A program made the translations under genes and the position numbers. A stretch of DNA of 64,000 bases from Brevundimonas sp. (GTDB lineage: Bacteria; Pseudomonadota; Alphaproteobacteria; Caulobacterales; Caulobacteraceae): NCBI RefSeq assembly GCF_027487935.1, contig NZ_JAIYCP010000002.1:1-64000 (forward strand). The letters run 5' to 3'. This document shows, piece after piece, positions 13,200 through 62,490 of this stretch. Position 1 is the stretch's first letter, and each line of letters starts with the position of its first letter. The notes under the pieces were generated by a model, which was not told where the DNA came from, made no database searches, and saw only the letters and a list, made by a program, of their open reading frames with translations.

Positions 13200-14096
13200 A
13201 TGCTGAAGTTTCCCGCCGCCCTCCGTTCGCGAAACGCCCTGGTCTCGGTCCTGGGCATCGTCCTGATCGCGGGCACGACCACGGTCGTGGCCCAGACCAC
13301 GCCGCTTGAGCCGGTGCAGTGGGACAAGCGGCGGCTTGAACAGCTGGACCGCAATGTCCGCCGGCTCGAACGCGCCGTGACCCAGCGCAACGCCGCCGGT
13401 GATCCTGTGATTATCGAGCCGGATCCCGAGGTCGTCGCCCTTCAGGGTCGGGTGGGTCTGATGGACCGCCGGCTGGCCGACATGGAGGCGACCGTCCAGC
13501 GCGTAAACGGCGACATCGAGCGGCTGACCTTCCAGCTGGATGAGGCCGGGCGCGACAACACCGCCCTGGCCAATCGTTTGCGTGACGCCGAGGGCCGTCT
13601 GCGTGTCATCGAGGCCGCGGCGGCGCGCGAGGCCGAGCTAAACTCCCCCATTCCCACCACCTCGCCGACCGGTGACGCGGTGCGCGACCTGACCGCGGCC
13701 GCCCGCCTCGCGGCCACCGACCCCCAGCGGGGCGAGCGGGCCCTCCAGACCGTCATCCTCGCCTGGCCGGATACGCCGCAGGCGCGGGAGGCCTCCAGCC
13801 GTCTGGGCGACCTGCGCGTCGCGGCCGGCGATCCGGCCGGTGCCGTGTCGGCCTATGCCACGGCCCTGCAAGGCTGGCCGACGGCCCCCTGGGCCCCCTC
13901 GACGACCCTCGAACTGGCCAATGCCCTGAATGCGACGGATCGCAAGACCCAGGCCTGTACCGCCCTGACCGAGTTCACCCGCCGCTACGCCGAGACTTCG
14001 AGCCCCGCAGTGCGAACCCGGGCCACCGAGGCCCGCAACCGTATCGGCTGCCCGGCCGCTGCGCCCGCCGCACCGCCGGCCCGGAGAGGGGGCTGA
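13200..14096 (+). CDS. ybgF: Tol-Pal system protein YbgF/CpoB
   Basis: Signal peptide, coiled-coil N-terminus, TPR-like C-terminus; upstream of tilS. Confidence 0.85.
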   Translation: MLKFPAALRSRNALVSVLGIVLIAGTTTVVAQTTPLEPVQWDKRRLEQLDRNVRRLERAVTQRNAAGDPVIIEPDPEVVALQGRVGLMDRRLADMEATVQRVNGDIERLTFQLDEAGRDNTALANRLRDAEGRLRVIEAAAAREAELNSPIPTTSPTGDAVRDLTAAARLAATDPQRGERALQTVILAWPDTPQAREASSRLGDLRVAAGDPAGAVSAYATALQGWPTAPWAPSTTLELANALNATDRKTQACTALTEFTRRYAETSSPAVRTRATEARNRIGCPAAAPAAPPARRGG

Positions 14097-15457
14097 CCCC
14101 AGACCCCGCCGACTGGATCGGGTCCGCGCGGGCCATCCTGTCCGCGCGGCTCCGGACTCACACCGACCAGCCGCTCGCCCTGGCCCTGTCCGGAGGCGGC
14201 GACTCGATGGCCTTGCTGCACCTTGCTGCCGACTGGGCCCGCGCCAACGGCCGCCGCCTGTTGGCCCTGACCGTCGACCATGGTCTGAACCCCGACAGCC
14301 CCGACTGGACGGCCGTCGCCGAGCGCGCCGCCCATGCGGCCGGGGCCGACTGGCGCGGACTACCTTGGACCGGCCCGAAGCCCGCGACCGGCCTGCCGGC
14401 CGCGGCCCGCACCGCCCGCCACCGCCTGATCGCAGAGGCGGCACGGGAGGCGGGCGCTCGGGTCGTGCTGTTCGGCCATACCGCCACCGACATCGCCGAG
14501 GGCGAGCTGATGCGGGACCGGGGATCGACCCTCGGCCGGCTGCGCGAATGGTCACCCTCTCCGGCCTGGCCCGAGGGGCGGGGCCTGATGCTGCTGCGTC
14601 CGATGCTGGACGCGGGGCGGGAAGACGTACGGCAATGGCTGGCAGGGCAGGGGGCCACCTGGCTCGATGATCCGGGCAATGATGACCCGAGGTTTGCGAG
14701 AAGCCGGGCCCGGCAGGCTCTAACCCTTCTCCCGATGGGAGAAGGTGGCCCGGAGGGCCGGATGAGGGTCGACTGGATGAGCGGCGAAGCCGCCCCCGGA
14801 CAGTCGCCCCTCACCCTTTCGCGCAAGGACGACCGCTTCGCGCCTGTGCGCTCAAGCCCTCTCCCGATGGGAGAGGGATCAATCAGGATCGACCGGCTTG
14901 TCGACGCTCCCACCCTCGCCGCCGCCCTCGTCTGTGCTGGCGGAGGCGACCGGCTCCCGCGCGGCGACCGGCTCGCCACCATCCTCGCCCGCCTGCACTC
15001 CAGCGAGGCCTTCACCGCCACCCTTTGCGGGACCCGGGTCGAAGCCAGCGGCGAACACGTCCTCGTGACCCGGGAATCCGGCGAGTTCCTCCGACGACCG
15101 CGCCCGCCCCTCGCTCTGTCCCCTGGCGTCGAGACGGTCTGGGACGGCCGTTGGGCCATCACGGTCGGGTCGTTCGGATGGTCCGTTGCCCCCGCGGCCG
15201 GGCGCATGGCGAGCCTTTCGGACGCCGACCGGGCTGTGCTGAGGGCCTTGCCGCCTGCGGCACGCGGTTCCCTGCCTGTGCTGATCCGGAACGATGCGAC
15301 TGCGCCGGTTCTTGCAGGGACGGCGGGCAGGGCGACGTCGCTGGTCGAGGAGAGACTGGCGCTGGCGCTGGACCGAATGACGCACGAACGGGACCTTGGT
15401 GGCACCATCCATGGCGCATTGCCGCGGAACCACCTATTTTCCGAAGCAGATCACTGA
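14093..15457 (+). CDS. tilS: tRNA(Ile)-lysidine synthase TilS, with embedded repeat-derived segment
   Basis: PP-loop LALSGGGDSMALLHLAAD; VDHGLNPDS. The track ATG (14207) lies after the PP-loop, so the true start is upstream; CTG at 14093 overlaps the ybgF TGA. Confidence 0.85.
   Translation: MTPDPADWIGSARAILSARLRTHTDQPLALALSGGGDSMALLHLAADWARANGRRLLALTVDHGLNPDSPDWTAVAERAAHAAGADWRGLPWTGPKPATGLPAAARTARHRLIAEAAREAGARVVLFGHTATDIAEGELMRDRGSTLGRLREWSPSPAWPEGRGLMLLRPMLDAGREDVRQWLAGQGATWLDDPGNDDPRFARSRARQALTLLPMGEGGPEGRMRVDWMSGEAAPGQSPLTLSRKDDRFAPVRSSPLPMGEGSIRIDRLVDAPTLAAALVCAGGGDRLPRGDRLATILARLHSSEAFTATLCGTRVEASGEHVLVTRESGEFLRRPRPPLALSPGVETVWDGRWAITVGSFGWSVAPAAGRMASLSDADRAVLRALPPAARGSLPVLIRNDATAPVLAGTAGRATSLVEERLALALDRMTHERDLGGTIHGALPRNHLFSEADH
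14724..14877 (+). repeat. palindrome-capped dispersed element (type A), copy within tilS
   Basis: Bounded by CCTTCTCCCGATGGGAGAAGG and CCCTCTCCCGATGGGAGAGGG; aligns end to end with the reverse complement of 46781..46932. Confidence 0.88.
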
Positions 15458-15496: not shown

Positions 15497-17431
15497 ATGA
15501 ACCTGCGCAATCTGGCCATCTGGGGCGTCATTATCCTCGGTGCCATGGCCTTCTATGTCGCCGCCAGCCGCCCGGGCGGCCTCACCGCGCCGCCCGGTGC
15601 CAAGGAGGCCGCTGCGGCGCGCCCCGTGGTGATGAGCTATTCGGACCTGCTCAAGGCCCGCGATGACGGCAATATCGTCAGCGTCGAGGTGCGCGGCGAG
15701 GCCGTGAAGGCGACCCTTCGCGACGGCAAGGTCGTGACGGTCACGACAACCCTGCCCAACTCCGCCCTGATCGACAGCATCCAGGCCAAGGGTGCCGAGG
15801 TCGACGTCAAGACCACGCGCCAGTCGCTGTGGGTCAGCGCCCTGATCGGCCTGCTGCCCTTCATCCTGATCATCGGCCTGTGGATCCTGATCATGCGCCA
15901 GATGCAGGGCGGTGCGCGCGGGGCCATGGGCTTCGGCAAGTCCAAGGCCAAGCTGCTGACCGAGCACAAGGGTCGCAAGATGTTCGAGGACGTCGCCGGT
16001 GTGGACGAGGCCAAGGAAGAACTTCAGGAGGTTGTCGACTTCCTCAAGGACCCGGGCAAATTCCAGCGGCTGGGCGGCAAGATTCCCAAGGGGGCCTTGC
16101 TGGTTGGCCCTCCCGGGACCGGCAAGACCCTGCTGGCTCGCGCCGTCGCGGGCGAGGCGGGCGTGCCCTTCTTCTCCATTTCGGGCTCTGACTTCGTCGA
16201 GATGTTCGTGGGCGTGGGTGCCAGCCGCGTGCGCGACATGTTCGAACAGGCCAAGAAGAATGCCCCCTGCATCATCTTCATCGACGAGATCGACGCGGTC
16301 GGCCGCCATCGTGGTGCCGGCCTCGGCGGCGGCAATGACGAGCGCGAGCAGACGCTGAACCAGCTTCTGGTCGAGATGGACGGGTTTGAGGCCAATGAGG
16401 GCATCATCCTGATTGCCGCCACCAACCGCCCGGACGTGCTGGACCCGGCCCTGCTGCGTCCCGGCCGCTTCGACCGTCAGGTCGTGGTGCCCAATCCCGA
16501 TGTGAACGGTCGCGAGAAGATCCTGCGCGTGCACATGAAGGACGTGCCCCTGGCCGCCGATGTCAACACCAAGACCATCGCGCGCGGCACCCCCGGCTTC
16601 TCGGGTGCCGATCTGGCCAATCTGGTCAATGAGGCGGCCCTGATGGCGGCTCGCAAGGACCGGCGCATGGTCACCCACCGCGACTTCGAAGACGCCAAGG
16701 ACAAGGTCATGATGGGAGCCGAGCGCAAATCCATGGCCATGAACGAGGAGGAGCGCCGCCTGACGGCCTATCACGAGGGCGGCCACGCCATCGTGGCCAT
16801 GAACGTCAAGATGGCCGATCCGGTGCACAAGGCGACCATCGTCCCGCGGGGCCAGGCCCTCGGCATGGTCATGCAACTGCCGGAAGGCGACCGCTATTCG
16901 ATGAAATACCAGCAGATGGTCGATCGTATCGCCATCATGGCGGGCGGCCGCGTGGCCGAGGAGCTGATCTTCGGCAAGGAGAACATCACCTCGGGTGCCA
17001 GCTCCGACATCCAGCAGGCCTCGAAACTGGCCCGCCGCATGGTCACCCAGTGGGGCTTCTCGGACGTCCTCGGGACGGTGGCCTATGGCGAGAATGAGCA
17101 GGAGGTCTTCCTCGGCCACTCGGTCGCACGCAGCCAGAACGTCTCGGAGGAAACGGCCCGGATCATCGATTCCGAGGTCAAGCGTCTGGTCACCGAGGGC
17201 TGGGACGAGGCCCGCCAGATCCTGACCGACAAGGCCGCCGATCTCGAGACCCTGGCCCAGGCCCTGCTGGAGTATGAAACCCTCTCCGGCCAGGAGATCA
17301 GGGACCTGCTCGAGAAGGGCGTGGCCCCGAACCGCGACGAGAGCAATTTCCCCAATGTCGGCCCATCGGTTTCCGTGCCGATCACCCCGGTAGCGGACGC
17401 GGCTCCGGCCGAGGCCCAGACCGTCCACTGA
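15497..17431 (+). CDS. ftsH: ATP-dependent zinc metalloprotease FtsH
   Basis: [45 protein letters not shown] zinc site. Confidence 0.98.
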
Positions 17432-46780: not shown

Positions 46781-46932
46781 CCCTCTCCCATTGGGAGAGG
46801 GCTTGAGCCTCCGGGCGCGAAGCGATCGGCAAGGCGAAAGGGTGAGGGTCGGCCGTCCGGGGGCGGCTTCGCCGCTCAATCCAGCCGACCCACATCCGGC
46901 GCTGCGCGCCACCTTCTCCCAGCGGGAGAAGG
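46781..46932 (-). repeat. palindrome-capped dispersed element (type A), intergenic copy
   Basis: Bounded by CCCTCTCCCATTGGGAGAGGG and CCTTCTCCCAGCGGGAGAAGG; reverse complement aligns with 14724..14877. Confidence 0.88.
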
Positions 46933-62296: not shown

Positions 62297-62305
62297 GTTC
62301 TTGTC

Positions 62306-62484
62306 TCCTCCCCATCGCCCGCGATGGGGAGGGGGACCACGAAGTGGTGGAGGGGTCGACGCTCGCGCGCTGACCCCTCCGATTGGCTCAGGATTTCAGG
62401 CTAACGCACGAAGCGCGGATGAGGAACCAGCCCCTCCACCACTTCGTGGTCCCCCTCCCCATTGGCTTCGCCAACAGGGAGGAG
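62306..62484. repeat. large inverted-repeat element (type C) between tandem peptidase genes
   Basis: Arms 62324..62356 (ATGGGGAGGGGGACCACGAAGTGGTGGAGGGG) and 62430..62462 (its complement). Confidence 0.85.
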
Positions 62485-62490
62485 ACAGGA

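Follow-up and report, generated by a model that had tools for sequence, protein, structure and literature searches.

A tolerant interdomain linker of TilS in Brevundimonas and its relatives, probably colonised more than once by palindromic repeats evolving as DNA

The best-known in-frame palindromic repeats are those of Rickettsia and Wolbachia. Rickettsia palindromic elements (RPEs) are inserted in frame into conserved genes, orthologs may carry different RPE groups at one locus, and for such loci an insertion hotspot has been discussed against divergence (PMC3767692; PMC2229807). In Caulobacter and other alphaproteobacteria, the CcrM-associated intergenic repeats (CIRs) are structured repeats of approximately 110 bp (PMC2229807), described as strictly intergenic (PMC10969869). 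REPs have been reported inside genes, including at about the same recB site in two Xanthomonas species (PMC3733652). Bacterial MITEs such as ERIC, Correia/NEMIS and QMITE are non-autonomous, structured and sometimes fused to genes (PMC10969869). Within the open-access literature, most subscription journals lying outside it, no report was found of in-frame repeats in Caulobacterales like the one described here, which extends the phenomenon to a GC-rich genus outside the Rickettsiales.

The window, by which we mean the whole stretch of 64,000 nucleotides analysed, belongs to a genome of 2.65 Mb whose relatives are Brevundimonas. It contains tilS, which has an open frame at 14093-15457 and was identified by TIGR02432 (101.4 bits, cut-off 93.6) and Pfam ATP_bind_3, with ftsH located directly downstream, at 15497. 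The N-terminal PP-loop domain is present, as indicated by the TIGR02432 score above cut-off and by Foldseek, for which the best matches of the TilS model were 1ni5 (E. coli MesJ/TilS) and 3a2k (the TilS-tRNA complex). The initial annotation had placed a palindrome-capped element at 14724-14877 within this frame. Both terminal hairpins were indeed exact, with perfect 9-bp stems, and the element was in frame and 153 bp long (about 51 predicted residues), while its start had to be moved by one base, to 14725 (Table 1). Its location after the catalytic domain was likewise confirmed, this domain ending at residue 208 and the insert following directly, at residues ~210-260 (numbering from window:14099-15454); VDWMSGEAAPGQSPLTLSR is an example of a tryptic peptide predicted from it. 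In the AlphaFold2 model of TilS (mean pLDDT 83.6), pLDDT fell below 50 only at residues 215-252 and in the C-terminal tail, and the insert is thus predicted to be disordered. The hairpin pattern was matched six times in the window, where 0.49 matches were expected (0/100 shuffles), and the single-strand fold of the element was strong, with z = -5.6 as RNA and -6.0 as DNA. The same insert, 98% identical, was present in L076, an independent close relative (88% identity), so an assembly artefact can be set aside. The suspicion that tilS might be broken and backed by a second, intact copy was not borne out: the own genome yielded no second tilS, the sole full-length TilS match being this gene and the other matches repeat copies.

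Table 1. Coordinates of tilS, of the element within it and its hairpins, and of another copy of its family elsewhere in the window.
Feature	Position	Strand	Basis
tilS, tRNA(Ile)-lysidine synthetase	14093-15457	+	TIGR02432, ATP_bind_3, Foldseek
tilS element	14725-14877	+	covariance model R1, 165 bits; R1 built without tilS copies
5' terminal hairpin CCTTCTCCCGATGGGAGAAGG	14725-14745	.	sequence and fold; arms CCTTCTCCC-GAT-GGGAGAAGG
Hairpin 2, GGCCC-GGA-GGGCC	14747-14759	.	covarying pair 26-32, 11 and 11 copies
Long stem GGATGAGGG.CGACTG / CAGTCG.CCCTCACCC	14760-14816	.	fold and covariation
Hairpin GCGGCGAAGCCGC	14781-14793	.	enclosed by long stem 14760-14816
3' internal hairpin GCGCA...TGTGCGC	14821-14851	.	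fold; partly decayed in tilS copy of window
3' terminal hairpin CCCTCTCCCGATGGGAGAGGG	14857-14877	.	sequence and fold; arms CCCTCTCCC-GAT-GGGAGAGGG
Second same-family copy	46781-46932	-	86% identity; R1 168.7 bits; intergenic, adjoins AlkZ-like gene

The element belongs to a dispersed family, as the initial annotation had supposed in speaking of a mobile repeat within an essential gene: it occurs repeatedly in the genome, many related TilS lack it, and the gene holding it is intact. Similarity searches and retrieved sequence stretches revealed about 14 full-length copies in the own genome (70-89% identity), plus fragments; the 13 copies outside tilS lie beside genes and interrupt no Pfam domain. 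The slot of the copy at 46781-46932 was also occupied in two other genomes (G012 and G070). On the basis of DNA similarity (E<=1e-8), the family was present in 36 of 37 Brevundimonas genomes, the own one included, and in none of 24 genomes from other families of the order. The covariance model R1, constructed from 22 copies that all lie outside tilS, detected it in 60 of 61 Brevundimonas genomes (E<=1e-3); elsewhere in Caulobacterales, matches were weaker and often single, but numbered 16-29 in three genomes (G089, G093 and G102). In the stems, both sides were altered in 42 cells, where shuffles gave 16.9 (none of 500 reached the observed value); 98.5% of the cells were paired, against 46-57% with the partner slid. 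Other copies exchange hairpin 2 for GGCGC-GCA-GCGCC, and the 3' internal hairpin module alternates between two sequences among them. The stems covary, and the family therefore keeps a defined multi-hairpin structure. No Rfam family reached its gathering threshold on the element; the only weak match, an antizyme frameshift element (19.7 bits, cut-off 40), was rejected. Two of the six frames were close to stop-free in the copies outside tilS as well (alignment A2), stops being present in 2/22 and 3/22 copies, where base shuffles predicted approximately 14.

Among the copies sampled, retention in frame was specific to the TilS linker. R1 matches were found there in 25 of 81 sources (the window and 24 loci), and all 25 slot copies had lengths that were multiples of three (84-180 bp), compared with 15 of the 50 copies at other places (p 1e-9). 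A coding classifier, trained on Pfam-verified genes, called read-through for 15 of 16 tilS copies and for 0/53 copies outside tilS (about 20 genomes, sampled by model score). We infer that the frame is read through the insert and that TilS is the exception, the family being otherwise intergenic in this sample. Insert-bearing species include B. basaltis (DSM 25335, L088), but at roughly half of the species, if not more, the slot holds no such element. The TilS proteins of other Caulobacterales families were devoid of it, including in families with many R1 matches, so that the concern raised in the initial annotation, namely that distant orthologs might hold the same segment, was not confirmed. 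In several of these families (L280, L281, L282, L284 and L285), TilS displays at the same place a longer and different connector, charge-rich and helix-like by eye, where Caulobacteraceae have a disordered linker. The slot may have become available through loss of this longer connector in Caulobacteraceae.

When compared with the systems described above, the tilS element resembles the RPEs and the Wolbachia palindromic elements, which are likewise palindromic repeats, roughly 100-150 bp long, dispersed through the genome and also found in intergenic regions. Its length, its ~14 full copies and its covarying hairpins all point to this likeness. By contrast, the host is a GC-rich Brevundimonas, the gene is a different one, and, among the copies sampled, only tilS is affected where RPEs affect many protein genes. 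The parallel with Rickettsia proposed in the initial annotation can thus be retained in kind, but not in extent, as coding palindromes are not found genome-wide. Judged from published descriptions, the element would work like an RPE, a likeness in architecture and behaviour. CIRs were rejected as candidates: their defining GANTC was absent in 22/22 copies, and they are strictly intergenic whereas the element lies in frame within tilS. REP, REPIN and BIME elements share with it short palindromes at both ends and a frequent location near gene ends. However, their GTAG (or CGTC) tag was not seen by eye at the hairpin bases of the 22-copy consensus, and the element is about 150 bp long with an internal multi-hairpin body. 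The RAYT Y1 transposase (PF01797) was not detected in the own genome and was found in only 1 of 23 Brevundimonas genomes. With neither the tag nor an own-genome Y1 transposase, assignment to REP/REPIN and mobilisation by RAYT are not supported. With respect to target-site duplications, a MITE feature, 2-bp repeats were seen 7 times against 2.7 expected (p 0.02), and none was longer.

In our opinion, these observations are probably best explained by a tolerant linker that has been repeatedly colonised by palindromic repeats evolving as DNA. A non-autonomous, hairpin-rich genomic repeat would have entered the TilS interdomain linker in frame, an insertion tolerated, in this proposal, because the linker is disordered in Caulobacteraceae. 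The copy, once read through, would serve as an unstructured tether of variable length whose peptide sequence is not selected; selection on TilS would only keep the frame open. The linker would moreover have been occupied more than once in Caulobacteraceae, the occupants being this repeat and members of two further families.

Repeated occupation was considered on a TilS tree constructed with the insert columns removed, a quick tree with weak deep nodes. Bearers of the element family fell into three groups, and their union into one clade was rejected (p-AU 1.75e-5, the bearer group being defined from the sequences and the tree being a quick one). A single ancient insertion in the ancestor of Brevundimonas, followed by decay in some lineages and with no repeated colonisation, is in line with the same codon region being used in clades A and B and with the eroded remnants visible, and on a tree with such weak deep nodes parsimony cannot separate gains from losses. 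This scenario is nonetheless unlikely in view of the non-monophyly of the bearers and of several features of the slot itself. In four loci (L107, L116, L128 and L130), the opposite strand scored higher with R1, indicating a mirrored architecture. The TilS linker of Brevundimonas bullata (L135) contained another repeat, of which the genome has about 10 full copies, and that of a Caulobacteraceae MAG (L152) a third one, with about 40 copies, while the nearest tree rows of both were without these inserts. Entry points also differed by a few codons, which speaks for a tolerant linker more than for a site-specific target. Among TilS relatives, no empty-site ortholog was found close enough to show the insertion junction. 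A broader formulation, in which the TilS linker of Caulobacteraceae is a recurrent landing slot, occupied by several palindromic families independently and with a coding sequence that evolves not as protein but in concert with the intergenic repeats, through module swapping or gene conversion, is put forward tentatively, at slightly less than even chances.

The window itself contains two further palindromic families. The first, at 343-502, has the ends CCCTCCCCC...GGGGGAGGG, resembles by eye the family found in tilS of B. bullata, and has end segments that are found again at two further sites of the own genome. The second, at 62305-62485, with ends CCTCCCCATCG...CGATGGGGAGG and stems GGACCACGAAGTGGTGGAGG, resembles by eye the tilS family of L152, and its end segments recur about 20 times in this genome. 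Both yielded weak R1 scores (27.6 and 21.3 bits, respectively), and the three families may thus be distantly related.

The evolution of the insert was evaluated in nine species with the same element type. Its pN/pS was 0.88, against 0.28 and 0.45 in the TilS flanks, so that no protein-level constraint was seen. Species also differ in which of the three frames is used for the middle of the element. The initial annotation had seen here the creation of new protein sequence; as far as a sequence under selection is meant, neither observation supports this. In the nine species, pS was only 0.16 in the insert, against 0.43 and 0.36 in the flanks: the DNA diverges less than the adjacent synonymous sites. 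Across species, slot copies were as similar to intergenic copies (86.5%) as to each other (86.1%), the sister pair formed by the window and L076 (98%) being the exception. Type-1 slot copies did share an A (9/9, against 2/22 of the copies outside tilS, p 2.7e-6), at a site spotted by eye prior to testing, and this points to a slot of common descent. Internal modules varied among related species, with a type 2 element, itself repetitive in some genomes, in L082, L084, L086, L090 and L091. At orthologous intergenic slots, too, flanks and position were kept while modules and lengths differed (L010/L259; L011/L257/L266/L272; L006/L246/L260). We take these differences, at tilS and at intergenic slots, as mosaic exchange among copies, to which structural constraint could contribute. 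From a mechanistic point of view, the slot copy would have been inherited across species in the lineage of the window genome, its DNA being pulled towards the family consensus, most likely by copy-to-copy exchange with intergenic copies. Such exchange, by gene conversion or module swapping, would be the same as that seen at the orthologous intergenic slots. A stretch of a conserved enzyme would then offer a clear case of shaping by repeat-DNA processes and not by protein selection.

Low DNA divergence is expected under conversion as well as under structural constraint, and the tilS hairpins could instead form a cis element acting on mRNA or DNA, for example in the processing or expression of tilS-ftsH, its DNA being conserved by selection at the locus. 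The low pS with no protein constraint, the covarying stems and strong fold, and the immediate proximity of ftsH are all in line with such a role. However, covariation was measured in copies outside tilS and therefore characterises the family and not tilS; the slot is free of the element in a large part of the species and holds different modules, orientations or families in others; and no Rfam family was matched at gathering threshold. We accordingly regard locus-specific structural selection as distinctly improbable, and conversion as the likelier cause of the DNA similarity. Exaptation of the ~50 residues as a useful part of TilS, suggested by an insert kept in many species with an always open frame, is very hard to reconcile with the near-neutral pN/pS, the changing frame of the middle part, the variation in length from 84 to 180 bp, the predicted disorder and the absence from many species.

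A tolerant linker occupied by repeats that evolve as DNA also offers new perspectives on the Rickettsia elements. Dozens of Brevundimonas species constitute a natural series in which the question posed for RPE-4, RPE-6 and RPE-7, that of a hotspot versus one diverged insertion (PMC3767692), becomes testable.

Two minor observations concern the tilS frame. In L151 (B. albigilva) and L140, the TilS frames stop early from the match start, after 115 and 113 residues, respectively, for which a frameshift, a sequencing error or a coordinate effect are candidates. The tilS start in the window is probably a CTG (14093-14095) that shares bases with the stop codon of the preceding gene (CTGA, 14093-14096). 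An in-frame CTGA was found in the expected region in 70 of 74 TilS loci (the window and the L076-L155 range), and 43 loci were without ATG, GTG or TTG between 4 codons upstream of the CTGA and 23 codons before SGGGDS. In clade A, GGAG lies a few bases 5' of the CTGA. A CTG start conserved in a core gene would, if true, be unusual.
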